Source: Fibrobacter sp.
GTDB lineage: Bacteria > Fibrobacterota > Fibrobacteria > Fibrobacterales > Fibrobacteraceae
Length of the DNA stretch: 35,843 nucleotides
NCBI GenBank assembly: GCA_012523035.1
Contig: JAAYJH010000014.1
Location: forward strand, 1-35,843
Direction: 5' to 3'
The position numbers were made by a program, and so were the translations under genes. Below the pieces are notes generated by a model. The model was not told where the DNA came from and searched no databases. It saw only the letters and a list, made by a program, of their open reading frames with translations. Below are positions 24,689 to 30,598 of the stretch, piece after piece. Within the stretch, counting starts at the first letter, position 1, and every line of letters begins with the position of its first letter.

Positions 24689-25077
24689 GCATAACTCCTT
24701 AAGATTTTTATTAAAATACAAAATTAAATTTAAAAAACCAAAATTTCAATGAAATTTAATTCTAAGCGCCAAGTGCTTTTTCTTGTTTAACCTATTCTAT
24801 ATACAAAAAACTCACCTAAAACATGAATAAGTTTACTAAGCATCTAAAAAAATTAAATCATGAATCTTTCTTTTTTTTAAATTCACAAAAAAATTGTGTT
24901 TGCAAATTGAACTCCCGCGTTTCATTCTTTTCTAAAAACTGTTTTGGAAAGCGTTCTATTTTTTTTTACCACTTCACTATGAATTTTATAATAAATTGTT
25001 TCTACTTTAAAGTTTAAAAGTTTTAAAAACATTCAAAAAAAAGACCCCTGTTTAGAAGTCTTTTAATAATCTCAAAA
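24689..25077. other. AT-rich intergenic region
   Basis: It holds the promoter side of the YugP-type gene and the terminator of the VTC/DUF4956 operon (25033-25064). At about 24750-24785 there is a weak resemblance to the dispersed repeat in reverse orientation (TCTAAGCGCCAAGTGC then T-rich), too degenerate to call. A 64-codon open frame on the + strand at 24823-25017 is rich in Phe, Lys and Asn, as expected for AT-rich noise, and is not called. Confidence 0.5.
25033..25064 (-). terminator. Intrinsic terminator of the DUF4956-adaptor-TolC-VTC-LTD operon
   Basis: On the minus strand AAAAGAC pairs with GTCTTTT around a 12-base loop and continues into a U run. It begins 14 bases after the lamin-tail gene stop. 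Confidence 0.8.
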
Positions 25078-26631
25078 TTAAGGTTTTCCAGGACTAGGAT
25101 CACCTATTTTCCATACTCCAGCTTCGTAACCCATGGAGTTGTAATCTGTTCTATGCAGACTTTTGCCATAACCATCGGCTTCTTTCATGCCTTCCCAGTT
25201 GTCAGAATAAAGCACAGCATCAATGTAAGAGTAAAACCATTCTGTTTTGTTATTGACTTTAGCAAAATCAAAAGGTTTTTGAACGATCAAGAGTTCGCCT
25301 CTATTAGAAAGCCTGCCTTTGTATTTGTGTATGGGTATATCATCTGCAATGGCGTATTTAGCTTTGAACGCCTCTATGTTAGTTGTTTCTTCGACTAAAA
25401 GGAGTAGTCCATTTGCAGGAATCACAGCCCCTAAAGTAAATGTCATTCGAATTCCAGCTATTTTCCAGCCCGCCACTTCTCCTTTAATCATAGAACTTAG
25501 TTCAACATCTTGATCGGATTTGTTGATCAATTCTAAAAACTCCACCTGATCTGTAAAATCCATGGGGTGATAATTGATTTCGTTGATAAATACAGGGCCA
25601 GCCATTAAAATCTCGTTGGCTGTGCCTGGAGTTGGAGAGGCTAAACTCCCTTGCCCAAGACTCCCATCTGCTAGCTCCACAAAACCACTTGAGGCTTCCC
25701 CCGCTATGGCTTTTAAACTTGCCTCTCTCAGGGTCATTTTACCGTCTTTCACTTCTCTTAAATAATAATCAGACCCAGTAGCACCCACATATAAACCTTC
25801 TTCACCAAAATCTCCGGATTCTTCATCTCCATTCAACACTAAATACCCTTTAGCATCTATCACAGTCCCAGGATTTAATTTAAAAGTTTGGTTTTTGGCT
25901 ACCACTTCTAATTCCCACCCACTCATATCTATACTTTTGTCACTAGAATTATAAAGTTCCACCCAGCCAGCCACACCCGCAGTAAAAGGCATCACCTCGT
26001 TGATTCGCACTTCTAAAGGTTTTATATAAGTATCGGGTCCACCAGGGTTTCCTCCATCTACAGCGTGTGCTGCCCAAGACTCGATATGTATAGGGTCTCC
26101 ACCTATGTACACAAGCGAACGCCCTTTTCCATTGCTTAAGCTAGGCCAGGGAGGTTCTCCTCCAAAGGAACAACTCACATCGCCTTTCCCCCTAAGTTTG
26201 ATTTCTATCGCGTCTCCTTCATTGGGAAGTTTTGGCAAAGTACCATCTTCATCTAAATACCATGGCCCAAAAAGTCTCCCCGAAAACTCTGGATAGGTGG
26301 CCATAAATAATTCTGGGTCATTAGTAAGAACAGCATATTCATTGGTGTCTAAAGGCTCTGCTGGAAACTCAAATTTAACAGCTCCCTTGACTCGCAATTC
26401 CGCATGCTCCATGTCTAAAATAGCTGGCCCTCTTGTGATTTTAAACTCGATATACTCTAAATCACTGCCACTATTGTACATGATTTCTGTGCAACCTATC
26501 TCTACATACTCATTCTCTCGAGTTGGATTTCTTTTTTCTGAAGGTTTCTCAGTACATCCACTCAAAAATAAACTAAGACCCACCAAAGTCCAAAAAAAAC
26601 TTTTATACGACTGCTTTTTTGAATATGACAT
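25078..26631 (-). CDS. Triple lamin-tail-domain (LTD) lipoprotein
   Basis: The 517-residue lipoprotein has a signal ending LFLSGC (Cys26), so it is anchored in the envelope. Three lamin-tail-like domains are visible by their NEIMYN-type openings: CTEIMYNSGSDLEYIEFKI (about 47-65), RINEVMPF...GWVELYN (about 209-230) and INEINYHPM...EFLELIN (about 350-375). Each is followed by a W or Y rich beta-sandwich pattern. Bacterial LTDs are surface or periplasmic binding modules, often attached to CotH kinase proteins or nucleases. No CotH kinase core or catalytic domain is seen here. It is the last gene of the operon. AAAGGA six bases upstream, inside the VTC gene's end, and a three-base gap show coupling. 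It may capture or display the product of the system. Confidence 0.82.
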   Translation of the reverse strand: MSYSKKQSYKSFFWTLVGLSLFLSGCTEKPSEKRNPTRENEYVEIGCTEIMYNSGSDLEYIEFKITRGPAILDMEHAELRVKGAVKFEFPAEPLDTNEYAVLTNDPELFMATYPEFSGRLFGPWYLDEDGTLPKLPNEGDAIEIKLRGKGDVSCSFGGEPPWPSLSNGKGRSLVYIGGDPIHIESWAAHAVDGGNPGGPDTYIKPLEVRINEVMPFTAGVAGWVELYNSSDKSIDMSGWELEVVAKNQTFKLNPGTVIDAKGYLVLNGDEESGDFGEEGLYVGATGSDYYLREVKDGKMTLREASLKAIAGEASSGFVELADGSLGQGSLASPTPGTANEILMAGPVFINEINYHPMDFTDQVEFLELINKSDQDVELSSMIKGEVAGWKIAGIRMTFTLGAVIPANGLLLLVEETTNIEAFKAKYAIADDIPIHKYKGRLSNRGELLIVQKPFDFAKVNNKTEWFYSYIDAVLYSDNWEGMKEADGYGKSLHRTDYNSMGYEAGVWKIGDPSPGKP

Positions 26632-26634
26632 AAG

Positions 26635-27462
26635 TTATCCTTTGAAGAAATTTCCTGCAAGATTGGAGTGAAAAGGAGTTCTAAAACTACTGGGGTTTTC
26701 ATAGACTCGTTTCCACTCATTGACTGCGTTTCCAAATTTTGAAAAACCACTCAATTTTAAGTTCATTTTTTTTATCAAATCAATCATCCAATATGGGACT
26801 TGAGAAGCGGGTGCTTTTAGCTCCAAAACCGCATCACAACCCGGTGAGAAAAATCGAGGCAAGCCTGTAGAATGCATGTATTTAGGGTCCACAGAATAAT
26901 CAAAAGCATTCTCTTCTCTAAAACGCATTCCCGTGTCGATGGTGACCCTAGAATAATCTTCTGTGAGCCCAAACCATGCACGCCTTTTGTATTGAGTGAG
27001 CAAACGAGGTTTAGCATTGTGCAAAGTGGTCTTGTACACAAAATCTTTGAGATACAAGGCATCTCGTTCTGAGAGTTCTGGCCAATCTGCAGGTGTTTTA
27101 TCAAAAATAATCGATGGATTGTGCCCCTTTAGAGTGGCTCTACTTTTGTAACTGATACGGTTTACCTTTCGTTTGACCTCGAAATGAAACACTCCCTTTG
27201 GGTCTGGATGTTCGCCATAAGTACGGATCCGCATATTAAAGCGATCCAATAAACCAGCATTTTTCCAACCCATAAAAGTCCACTGCGGAGAGTCTAAATA
27301 AAGATTGGTGATCCAATAAAAACGCCCGGGGGTGATTTTTGAATAATGATCTTCTTCGCAATAAGGAGAAATAAGCTCTCCAATGCGATCTGCCCAAGAG
27401 ACGGGGATGTGGTACTTGAGCTCAAAACGCTCCAGAGTACTAAAGCCACGCGCTTTTGACAT
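26635..27462 (-). CDS. VTC-domain protein (polyphosphate-polymerase-like)
   Basis: The 275-residue stand-alone VTC domain is cytosolic, with no SPX or membrane part. Its triphosphate-tunnel residues are in place: Lys16 in RFELKY, Arg78 and Arg80 in MRIRTYG, Lys97/Lys99 in FEVKRK, Lys106 and Arg108, Arg160/Arg161, Arg172 in RVTID, Glu214 and Lys216 in LELK, and Lys242 in FSKFGNA. In yeast Vtc4 this fold polymerises ATP gamma-phosphate into polyphosphate; in bacteria the activity of most members is untested. The ATG shares a base with the upstream TolC stop. Bacterial VTC genes commonly pair with DUF4956 genes, as here. The polymer could be polyphosphate or another nucleotide-derived product. 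Confidence 0.9.
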   Translation of the reverse strand: MSKARGFSTLERFELKYHIPVSWADRIGELISPYCEEDHYSKITPGRFYWITNLYLDSPQWTFMGWKNAGLLDRFNMRIRTYGEHPDPKGVFHFEVKRKVNRISYKSRATLKGHNPSIIFDKTPADWPELSERDALYLKDFVYKTTLHNAKPRLLTQYKRRAWFGLTEDYSRVTIDTGMRFREENAFDYSVDPKYMHSTGLPRFFSPGCDAVLELKAPASQVPYWMIDLIKKMNLKLSGFSKFGNAVNEWKRVYENPSSFRTPFHSNLAGNFFKG

Positions 27463-28847
27463 TAATTTAGACCTTCTTTTAAATGGTTATGGATGTCTCG
27501 ACGAGCAAATACCCCGGCATAGTCTAAAAGCACCAAGTAACGAAAATAAACCTCGTGTTCTAGTTTCACTGCTTTTAAGTTACTTGCAAGCGCAGCTTCT
27601 CTGGCTTTTAAGAGCAACAAAGGATCCGAGCCTGCCATGGCCGCAAACTCTTGAAATATGCTCCCGGCATCGACTTGAGCCACAAAATCTTTTTGGACAT
27701 TCCATTGCACAATCAAAGCCATGATTTCTTCGTAAAGGCGGGCTACTTTTTGATTCAATGTACGACTTTCTTCCAAATAATCACTCTCTGCATCTAATAC
27801 AGAAAGCTGACGACGCATCAAGTCATCGTTATTGTTAGAGAAAAATGGAAGCTTTATCGCCACATTTAAATAAAATTTATCCATCGTCCGACGATTATCT
27901 TCGGTCCTATTCAGGAGTCGAATTTCACAAGAGCCATCCTCTTCACAAGCACTTTTCCAATCTTCTAACCTAGTGTCTCCCGGTTTGAAGTCATCCTTTC
28001 CCATCCATTTGTATTTTTTTTGAGCGACAATGTGCTTGTAACCGATACCCACATGTGAAAGCATGTCTCGATCCGACACATTTTCTTGCATCAATCGTTC
28101 TTTACTCAACTCCCATTTCGCTCTAGCCATGTCGATGGTCGGGAAAGTAGAATCGACTTGAGCTGTTTTTTGCAGGACCGCATTCAGCTCTTCCATGCTA
28201 GGCAACCAAGAAGAATCTAAAGCAATCCCTTCAAAATCTGGTACCCAAGAACGGAGCTTCATTTCTATATCTCGAAGCGTGGTAGAGTCCGAAATCAACT
28301 CTGCTCTCAAAGCAGCACCTTTTTCGATAGCATTCATCAAATCCAAAGCATCAAAAGTTTCTGAACCCACTTTTGCATTTAATACGGTGATCCTATCTTG
28401 ATTGACTTCGAACAAAGACTCATTGATTTCAGCTATTTTTTGACGAGTCACATAACGCAGGGCCCTTTCGTATCGATCATAAATAAGCTGAGACTCATCG
28501 ACTCTTTTTCTAGCTTCTTGGTAGCGTTTTTGGTGTTTCCAAAAGTTTTTAACCGCTTTTTGTTCTCCTATAGGCCCCGGTTTCAGTCTCAATTCAAAAT
28601 CATGTTCTAAAAACCCAAAGCCATCTAACTTGTATCGAAACTCTAAGTCTTTCCAAAGTTTAGTCGATGGACCCGAAGAAATCGATTTCACTCGATTTTC
28701 AGCGGCCTTTAATACAGGATCTTCTGTTGCAGATTGAATTAAAGTCTCCCAAGTCAAAGGAGAAGCAAACACAAAAGAAGCTAAAATAAAGGCAAAACAA
28801 CTTTGCTTTTTTAAAATCTTGGTCCAGTATTTTTGATTGATAATCAT
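27462..28847 (-). CDS. TolC-like outer-membrane factor
   Basis: The 461-residue exported protein has an N-terminal signal (about 1-30, ending FVFASPL). It then has the long amphipathic helices and helical-hairpin repeat expected of outer-membrane efflux (OEP/TolC) proteins, including the paired regions about 95-215 and 340-450. Two strand segments are plausible at about 60-90 (LEFRYKLDGFGFLEHDFELRL) and about 305-340 (FYLNVAIKLPFF). Sequence conservation in the family is low, so the call rests on architecture and on the adjacent HlyD-type gene. Its start overlaps the adaptor stop by four bases and its stop shares a base with the VTC start. It would form the outer-membrane channel of the exporter. 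Confidence 0.8.
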   Translation of the reverse strand: MIINQKYWTKILKKQSCFAFILASFVFASPLTWETLIQSATEDPVLKAAENRVKSISSGPSTKLWKDLEFRYKLDGFGFLEHDFELRLKPGPIGEQKAVKNFWKHQKRYQEARKRVDESQLIYDRYERALRYVTRQKIAEINESLFEVNQDRITVLNAKVGSETFDALDLMNAIEKGAALRAELISDSTTLRDIEMKLRSWVPDFEGIALDSSWLPSMEELNAVLQKTAQVDSTFPTIDMARAKWELSKERLMQENVSDRDMLSHVGIGYKHIVAQKKYKWMGKDDFKPGDTRLEDWKSACEEDGSCEIRLLNRTEDNRRTMDKFYLNVAIKLPFFSNNNDDLMRRQLSVLDAESDYLEESRTLNQKVARLYEEIMALIVQWNVQKDFVAQVDAGSIFQEFAAMAGSDPLLLLKAREAALASNLKAVKLEHEVYFRYLVLLDYAGVFARRDIHNHLKEGLN

Positions 28848-29902
28848 TCAGAATCCTTTACATCTTTGTACTGCAATAGTCTTTTTATTCCTCTAATTTC
28901 AGAGATAGAAACCATTTCTCCTAGTAGAAACCCATTGTTTTCTGGGATTCGAATGATGACTTCTCGACCATAAATATCTACTTCTGGGATTTGACGCAAA
29001 CGAATAGGAAAATCTACAATTCTACTACTTAGGCCAATGATTTCGCCTTGAACTTTATGTCCATCTGCTTGTGACACCACATTCACCATAGTCCCGAGCT
29101 CTACCCTCTTGTACATGTTTTCGTGAATGTATCCACGCACCAAAGAAGGGGCTTTGCGAGTGAGGCTAATCATAGGGGTGAAACTAGAAATTTTTTCACC
29201 GTCTCTCACATTGACACTAGCCACAACCCAACTCTCTTTAGCAATAATAATGAGTTCTTCTTGTTCTTTTCGAAGCATCTCTAACTCACGACGAAGAGCC
29301 GAAGCTTCAGTGGCACTACTGGTCCTTTGAATCCCCTTGCTCCCCCTTAATAATGCAATTTGTGACGACGCATTTTCTTCAGCCATTTTCAATTCTTGTT
29401 TTAGGTTTTGAATACGCATAATCATAGGGTCGCTAGAATCACTTTTGGCACCAGAAGTCGCCAAACTTTTTAACTTAGATGCTAATTCCAAGTTTTTTTG
29501 GTATTCTGCTTTGAGCTTTTCAATTTCAAAATTCAAACTGTTTTTTCGACTGGCTAAATCGGCTTGAACTTCTGCTACTTTTTGATCAATGGTGGCTGTG
29601 TTGATGCTACCACGGCCCTCCAGAGCATCTAATTCACGATTCACTTCATTCATCCGAAGGGCTAAATCACTTCGACTCAACTCTATTAAAGTGTCTCCTT
29701 CTTGGATTTCTTGACCTACCACCACATGAACATTCACCACTTCTACTGCAGACTGTGCATTTACATTGGTTTCATTGGCCTCTGCAATCCCTGAAAACAC
29801 CACATTTTCACCTTGATACAAATAACCCAATAAAAAGACCCCGGCTAAAGCCAAAATCCAAGCATAAAACAATTTATTTTTTAAAATATAATCTCTAAAC
29901 AT
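28844..29902 (-). CDS. HlyD-family periplasmic adaptor (membrane fusion protein)
   Basis: The 352-residue protein has one N-terminal membrane anchor (about 11-30). A first half of a lipoyl-like domain (VEVVNVHVVVGQEIQEGDTLIEL, about 53-75) leads to a long coiled-coil hairpin (about 80-225). The second lipoyl half follows (VVASVNVRDGEKI), then a beta-barrel region (about 250-335) with LVRGYIHENMYKRVELG. This is the adaptor of type I / RND-like tripartite exporters. No ABC transporter or RND pump gene is in the operon; the DUF4956 membrane protein 12 bases upstream takes the place of an inner-membrane pump. GAAGG six bases before ATG 29902 supports the start. It would bridge the inner membrane to the TolC-like channel. 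Confidence 0.87.
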   Translation of the reverse strand: MFRDYILKNKLFYAWILALAGVFLLGYLYQGENVVFSGIAEANETNVNAQSAVEVVNVHVVVGQEIQEGDTLIELSRSDLALRMNEVNRELDALEGRGSINTATIDQKVAEVQADLASRKNSLNFEIEKLKAEYQKNLELASKLKSLATSGAKSDSSDPMIMRIQNLKQELKMAEENASSQIALLRGSKGIQRTSSATEASALRRELEMLRKEQEELIIIAKESWVVASVNVRDGEKISSFTPMISLTRKAPSLVRGYIHENMYKRVELGTMVNVVSQADGHKVQGEIIGLSSRIVDFPIRLRQIPEVDIYGREVIIRIPENNGFLLGEMVSISEIRGIKRLLQYKDVKDSE

Positions 29903-29914
29903 ATAAAACCTTCA

Positions 29915-30598
29915 CTACATCTCTGTCGTTGCATCTTGCATCATAAATTGAATATCTGAAACTCCTTTGACTTTGGTCAATTCACTCAAGACCTCTGCCG
30001 CCGGTTTTTTTGCGGTTAATCGCACTTGATATGCAATATCAAGCCTTTCTCCTCCATCGACTTCTCTCATGGTCACCAACACAAAAGTTTTTAAGTTTTT
30101 CCGTAAGACTTTTTCTATGGCTATCCTTGGTTCTGACTCGTTTGGCATTGCAAAACGAAGCATCCCATCAAAAAAGTGCTTAGAACCTAAACCAGCCCTG
30201 CTCAAAATCAAAGCCACTATTGAAAAAGCAACCGTCCCTCCGGCCGCAGCACCCCAAGCAAAAACTCCACAACCGATTCCTGCTCCTAATGCCGCAAACA
30301 AAAACATAATGTCTCGAGGATCTTTAAAATTGGTTCTAAATCGAACAATAGAGAGTGCCCCCAGCATCCCGAGTCCACGACCTACATTATCACCAATCGC
30401 TTGCATCACTGTGGCTGCTACAATAGAACTAAGTACAATGGCCTGCACAAAATTTCTAGAATAGGAGAGTCCTAAAAAGGTTTTTTCGTACACAAAAGCG
30501 AGTAACGATGACAAAATAAAGGCCAACAACAAGGAATAAAGCATGGTTATAACTGTAGGGTGGGCGGTACTAGACTGTACAGCAAGCAAATCTAACAT
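29915..30598 (-). CDS. DUF4956 membrane protein
   Basis: The 227-residue protein has four predicted membrane helices (about 17-37, 50-69, 97-116 and 117-134). The invariant DUF4956 loop GLGMLGALSIVRFRTNFKDPRD spans about 75-96. A soluble C-terminal domain (about 150-227) looks ferredoxin/ACT-like (DIAYQVRL...VSDIQFM). ATG 30598 is taken because GGAG lies eight bases upstream; the longer frame starts at a TTG with no ribosome site. DUF4956 genes recur beside VTC-domain and CotH genes in many phyla but have no established biochemical role. It is the first gene of the operon. The Gly-rich membrane part with a conserved Arg-rich loop would suit a polyanion conduit; this is inference. Confidence 0.9.
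   Translation of the reverse strand: MLDLLAVQSSTAHPTVITMLYSLLLAFILSSLLAFVYEKTFLGLSYSRNFVQAIVLSSIVAATVMQAIGDNVGRGLGMLGALSIVRFRTNFKDPRDIMFLFAALGAGIGCGVFAWGAAAGGTVAFSIVALILSRAGLGSKHFFDGMLRFAMPNESEPRIAIEKVLRKNLKTFVLVTMREVDGGERLDIAYQVRLTAKKPAAEVLSELTKVKGVSDIQFMMQDATTEM

Follow-up and report, generated by a model that had tools for sequence, protein, structure and literature searches.

A 35,843-nucleotide stretch of Fibrobacter sp. DNA (GenBank assembly GCA_012523035.1, contig JAAYJH010000014.1; hereafter the window) carries on its minus strand five genes that form a single tight run. The original prediction, made from the letters alone, had described them as an envelope-spanning polymer system, and recomputing the gene positions and junctions reproduced its map exactly: 12 bp lie between the DUF4956 and HlyD genes, HlyD and OEP overlap by 4 bp, OEP and VTC by 1 bp, and 3 bp separate VTC from LTD. 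In gene order, the features of the run are as follows.

29915..30598, minus strand: DUF4956 inner-membrane protein, 227 amino acids from the ATG at 30598 (PF16316, E = 1e-12)
28844..29902, minus strand: HlyD/EmrA-type periplasmic adaptor, 352 amino acids, with an N-terminal membrane anchor (HlyD_3, E = 3e-6)
27462..28847, minus strand: TolC-type outer-membrane channel protomer (OEP), 461 amino acids, with an N-terminal signal-like helix (Pfam OEP, E = 4e-5)
26635..27462, minus strand: stand-alone VTC-type triphosphate tunnel enzyme, a candidate polyphosphate polymerase, 275 amino acids (PF09359, E = 1e-30)
25078..26631, minus strand: LTD-repeat lipoprotein, 517 amino acids, lipobox LSGC with Cys26 (PF00932, E = 3e-24)
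25039..25064, minus strand: terminator-like hairpin with an 11-pair stem and a T-run, just past the LTD stop (consensus match only)

The operon had been said to end in a terminator. A hairpin with a T-run does follow the LTD stop codon; however, the scan that found it returned 10 terminator-like sites against 4.9 expected in shuffled sequence, so the hairpin alone is weak evidence for termination. The operon is flanked by genes for a rubrerythrin, an NhaA-like antiporter, a phosphoribosyltransferase, a pyridoxal phosphate-dependent decarboxylase and a Zn-peptidase, and no pel genes are among these neighbors. The claim that an ABC or RND pump is missing was checked for the operon and its flanks and stood to that extent: no ABC, RND or MFS pump gene lies within the operon or its near flanks in the window, and none was seen as a conserved neighbor across the fetched loci.

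We then asked of GTDB genomes, scanned with the DUF4956 profile, where else the set occurs, and obtained 80 loci (81 including the window). All four core genes (DUF4956, HlyD, OEP and VTC) lie on one strand in 76 of the 81 loci with this DUF4956 type, and the median gaps between them are 12, -1 and 1 bp. The remaining five are apparently cut by contig ends. Most of the forty Fibrobacterota loci fetched, across genera and families, keep the order DUF4956-HlyD-OEP-VTC-LTD. Outside the phylum the cassette is found in Thermodesulfobacteriota (Desulfonema magnum, Desulfoluna limicola and Desulfatirhabdium), Myxococcota, Calditrichota, Delongbacteria, Bdellovibrionota and Sumerlaeota, and a planctomycete locus is truncated. 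Several Desulfobacteria have the order CotH-HlyD-OEP-VTC-DUF4956, rearranged with the set kept. A separate sample from the class of Desulfonema held this DUF4956 type in 6 of 117 genomes, where it sits with adaptor, OEP and VTC; one of these six loci is cut at a contig end and another has VTC in two reading frames. The 76 complete cassettes, together with this separate sample, reject chance adjacency of the genes. Failure of the five-family set to recur had been named as the outcome that would speak against the system, and the neighborhood search found instead that it recurs. Nearly all Fibrobacteraceae have the system; elsewhere it is sporadic.

VTC and DUF4956 are common neighbors in bacteria, as the original prediction had stated. 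Among 151 sampled Fibrobacterota genomes DUF4956 was present in 119 and VTC in 121; both occurred in 118, only one in 4 and neither in 29 (Fisher p = 1e-26, not corrected for kinship), which makes the two near-obligate partners in this phylum. No fetched locus contained a VTC-DUF4956 gene fusion. A second type of locus (L163, L165, L162) has the arrangement Cthe_2159-VTC-DUF4956-CotH, with a possible outer-membrane barrel (weak Porin_O_P match only) between DUF4956 and CotH and without the adaptor-TolC pair. In another (L060:4524-8410), a divergent VTC-DUF4956 pair and a short LTD lipoprotein lie beside a Na/Pi cotransporter with a TIG domain, a neighbor with a direct bearing on phosphate.

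The VTC family profile matched the yeast Vtc4 structure 3g3q (E = 2e-14). The original prediction that the tunnel Arg/Lys/Glu set is kept held for most positions: profile alignment places Vtc4 K200, R264, R266, K281, K294, R361, E426 and K458 at K16, R78, R80, K97, K106, R160, E214 and K242 of the window protein, whereas R253 and K455 are not retained. Across the family alignment K200, R264, R266, K281, R361, E426 and K458 are invariant or nearly so. The window protein thus keeps R264, R266 and E426, the positions altered in the Vtc4 variant (R264A/R266A/E426N) used for the structure of the yeast complex (PMC9911596). Judged by this alignment, the tunnel is largely intact and the main catalytic set is present, and the enzyme would be expected to make polyphosphate. 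It has no hydrophobic helix by hydropathy, no SPX domain and no second Pfam domain. The window genome, which is 99.6% complete, encodes one VTC, one DUF4956 and one Ppx/GppA protein; neither PPK1 nor PPK2 was found in it, leaving VTC as its only recognizable polyphosphate synthase. PPK1 is patchy in the phylum (41 of 101 sampled Fibrobacterota), and most of the Fibrobacter genomes listed lack it yet have VTC.

Across the phylum DUF4956 is the most conserved of the five genes; copies from conduit-linked loci are 46-84% identical to that of the window. Besides the ATG at 30598, a TTG lying 21 bp upstream of it is open. Helices are predicted at about residues 14-40, 48-68, 72-87, 94-111 and 115-135, followed by an ACT-like C-terminal domain (145-220), and the protein is accordingly modeled as a membrane bundle joined to an ACT-like domain. 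The GLGMLGALSIVRFRT loop noted originally is indeed present, and R74, R86 and R88 are invariant in 35 sequences; the central helix-loop is basic, with R74, R86, R88, K92 and R95 all invariant. An AlphaFold2 model had a predicted local distance difference test score (pLDDT) of 76 and a predicted template modeling score (pTM) of 0.53. In Foldseek its C-terminal part matched ACT domains and its membrane part had no match in the PDB, for which reason we rejected the idea that an ACT domain is the entire fold; a PDB sequence search likewise gave nothing convincing. In a DUF4956 tree the conduit-linked type falls on one side of a branch with a Shimodaira-Hasegawa-like approximate likelihood ratio test (SH-aLRT) value of 92, below the starred level.

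The adaptor and TolC-type components are genuine. The adaptor profile matched EmrA structures (E = 8e-7), and a hydrophobic stretch starts at residue 10 of the window protein. PF02321 was detected in 18 of the 28 OEP family members, and a profile search of the PDB with the family returned no sequence relative. The weak Pfam call was settled by the predicted structure: the AlphaFold2 model (pLDDT 85) matched E. coli TolC over its full length in Foldseek (best E = 5e-14), and CusC and OprM full length as well, so that a false Pfam hit could be rejected. In several Fibrobacterota families and in Desulfobacteria the adaptor continues into a fused C-terminal domain with matches to the Phytase-like, DUF3616 and SdiA-regulated models (L053, L055, L082 and L088; a separate gene in L057). 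This domain is absent from the window adaptor, and its hint at phosphate chemistry is suggestive, yet ambiguous. Two Fibrobacter loci (L042, L044) carry a second OEP gene (about 600 amino acids) and an HlyD-like gene (about 300 amino acids) just after LTD, an addition absent from the window.

The fifth gene varies in kind, being LTD, CotH or both across loci. Cys26 of the LTD lipoprotein is invariant in 18 homologues, all of which carry LTD. The original description of a triple LTD protein stood in part: Pfam scores two stretches, not three, and a third, from near residue 46, is visible by eye. A PDB sequence search with LTD returned nothing. The window operon has no CotH gene, and the window genome has five. 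In several Chitinispirillaceae loci the gene directly upstream of DUF4956 is CotH; in other phyla CotH, or CotH with LTD, is in or beside the cassette at most loci with room for it. Outside Fibrobacteraceae, CotH and VTC occur together in 28 genomes, one alone in 5 and neither in 24 (not corrected for kinship). In other lineages CotH regularly belongs to the extended cassette, which the first reading missed, as it did the frequent adaptor fusion and the lack of PPK1 and PPK2. In two Bdellovibrionota loci (L098:14729-18058 and L099:14469-17798) the LTD/CotH position directly after VTC is taken by a protein of 1109 amino acids, the L098 copy of which has no Pfam match.

Some neighbors recall clusters described elsewhere. 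A GGDEF-EAL (cyclic di-GMP) protein is encoded directly upstream of one cassette (L182:7897-9525), and a diguanylate cyclase/phosphodiesterase lies beside the Bifidobacterium Pel-CotH-DUF4956 cluster (PMC7112168). In Clostridium perfringens, CP4_0460-0465 includes 'tubulin/FtsZ GTPase' proteins of 222-226 amino acids, predicted to be membrane proteins, beside VTC and CotH (PMC2879425); by length and context these may be misnamed DUF4956. For B. thetaiotaomicron, a listing places DUF4956 beside DUF2490 (PMC10434189).

Building on the composition of the cassette, its conserved order, the folds, the VTC-DUF4956 pairing and the absence of PPK1 and PPK2 from the window genome, we infer the following product, route and surface role. 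Cytosolic VTC would polymerize the gamma-phosphate of ATP into polyphosphate, as its homology and active site suggest, while docked on DUF4956, whose ACT-like domain is presumed to be cytosolic. DUF4956 would do the work that membrane helices do in the eukaryotic VTC complex, and the growing chain would cross the inner membrane there; the HlyD/EmrA-type adaptor and the TolC-type channel would then carry it through the periplasm and the outer membrane. In yeast VTC, polyphosphate synthesis is coupled to translocation and basic residues line the channel (PMC9911596). As proposed for that complex, chain elongation would pay for transport, and no ABC, RND or MFS pump would be needed. The LTD lipoprotein, and CotH kinases in other lineages, would work beyond the inner membrane, either on the product or together with it. 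The VTC tunnel residues, the invariant basic residues of DUF4956, the TolC fold, the EmrA-type adaptor and the Na/Pi cotransporter neighbor all support export. The whole chain of synthesis, export through DUF4956 and the adaptor-TolC conduit, energy from polymerization, and a role of LTD and CotH with the product is a serious possibility that stops a little short of being probable. If true, it would mean that polymer synthesis, and not a pump, powers a tripartite conduit.

Several observations weigh against this export model. A search of open-licence PMC papers, preprints excluded, found no enzyme activity for any bacterial VTC. The DUF4956 model is of moderate confidence (pTM 0.53), and the protein's resemblance, a weak one, is to MgtC rather than to a known channel. 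Since some Fibrobacterota VTC-DUF4956 pairs lack HlyD and TolC, the pair can do without the conduit. In Streptococcus intermedius, mutants deleted for DUF4956 (SIR_1592) or CotH (SIR_1594) aggregated less and had altered Pel levels, and no such effect was reported for deletion of VTC (SIR_1593) (PMC12345266). DUF4956 may therefore have a role independent of VTC, and these data fit an MgtC-like regulatory protein at least as well as a channel.

The alternative that survives best follows from the last of these points. DUF4956 could be a regulator of the MgtC kind that senses a metabolite through its ACT domain; together with VTC it would then adjust the phosphate or ATP of the cytosol, and the adaptor-TolC pair would export a metabolite, peptide or ion instead, by way of DUF4956 or some other inner-membrane protein. 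Besides the ACT-like C-terminal domain and a sub-threshold MgtC-family match (22 bits against a cut-off of 214), the S. intermedius protein has itself been described as MgtC-like, with four transmembrane segments and an ACT domain (PMC12345266). What this leaves unexplained is why so many phyla retain VTC, adaptor and TolC as a set, and why this DUF4956 type tracks the conduit as one group. We consider a regulator unlikely, while giving it a real chance.

A second alternative, somewhat less plausible, is that VTC adds phosphate or polyphosphate to an acceptor (a lipid, glycan or protein) and that the conduit exports the polymer so modified, which might be a matrix component. In Gram-positive bacteria, VTC-DUF4956-CotH clusters accompany Pel polysaccharide loci as accessory genes (PMC7112168), other Fibrobacterota place the pair with the Cthe_2159 carbohydrate-binding protein, and tunnel enzymes are reported to accept several substrates (PMC4641920). 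The conserved cassette genes include no glycosyltransferase or polysaccharide synthase, however, and the Vtc4 tunnel set is largely intact, both of which tell against a modified acceptor.

The prominence of CotH suggests further uses of an exported chain. In the broader form of this idea, exported polyphosphate, or its synthesis moving phosphoryl groups outward, fuels extracytoplasmic phosphorylation, with surface CotH and LTD proteins using the chain as donor or scaffold; this we regard as improbable, and if true it would mean secretion powered by a polymerase, without an ATPase pump, that brings phosphate energy to the exterior of bacteria with one membrane and with two. In a narrower form, the polymer is specifically the phosphate donor of extracytoplasmic CotH kinases, which would otherwise have no ATP outside the cell. 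The presence of CotH in or beside most cassettes of other phyla that have room for it, its co-occurrence with VTC and the five CotH genes of the window genome are consistent with such a donor; nevertheless, there is no evidence of polyphosphate use by CotH, the phenotype of the CotH deletion was not reported for S. intermedius lacking VTC (PMC12345266), and the window operon has no CotH. We hold the narrower form to be slightly less likely still.

Equally improbable is that the adaptor and channel are standard efflux components, transcribed along with a phosphate enzyme they have nothing to do with and serving a pump encoded elsewhere: adaptors and TolC proteins are often shared, and Fibrobacter genomes have a second OEP-HlyD pair just downstream of the operon, but all 76 complete loci hold the same four genes closely packed on one strand, the set is retained where the order is rearranged between lineages, and the channel has diverged so far that no PDB sequence matches it, suggesting specialization.

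Returning to the export model, we know of no settled account of how bacteria place polyphosphate outside the cell. The same open-licence PMC literature yielded nothing useful on extracellular polyphosphate export or on VTC in Fibrobacter, and no experimentally assigned function for bacterial VTC proteins. Nor did it yield a description of the VTC-DUF4956 version with an envelope conduit, in keeping with the earlier remark that no characterized system of this composition is known, although a prior description elsewhere is possible. The operon suggests an undescribed Gram-negative route for making polyphosphate and exporting it. A conserved operon that links a VTC, its membrane partner and a full envelope conduit, and that occurs where PPK1 and PPK2 can both be missing, makes a testable genetic unit, and the cassette ties CotH kinases to a possible extracytoplasmic phosphate source.

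Known systems share parts of this arrangement. PPK1 and PPK2 make the same predicted product; the enzymes are unrelated, and neither was found in the window genome. In synthase-dependent exopolysaccharide secretion (Pel, Bcs), polymer synthesis is thought to drive export through a dedicated envelope conduit; here, by contrast, there is no glycosyltransferase, the predicted product is inorganic and the outer-membrane part is of the TolC type. EmrAB-TolC and HlyBD-TolC, in tripartite efflux and type I secretion, have an HlyD/EmrA-type adaptor (by profile) and a TolC-type channel (by fold) in common with the operon, but they are energized by an ABC, RND or MFS inner-membrane pump, which is absent from this operon and in whose place stand VTC and DUF4956. 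The eukaryotic VTC complex (Vtc1/3/4; PMC9911596) has the same tunnel polymerase domain and, as proposed here, synthesis-coupled translocation via a membrane partner; it differs in its SPX domain and fused membrane helices, whereas the bacterial VTC is soluble and separate, with DUF4956 as its putative partner and an adaptor and outer-membrane channel beyond. The nearest described relative is the CotH-polyphosphate polymerase-DUF4956 set accessory to Gram-positive Pel loci (PMC7112168; S. intermedius SIR_1594-1592, PMC12345266), in which VTC and DUF4956 are paired with a secreted CotH kinase. That three-gene synteny was reported not to be found outside Pel loci (PMC12345266), yet in the diderm loci analyzed here related sets are common without an obvious pel operon. 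The window operon, likewise without pel genes, adds an adaptor, a TolC channel and an LTD lipoprotein, and its new element is a complete envelope conduit.

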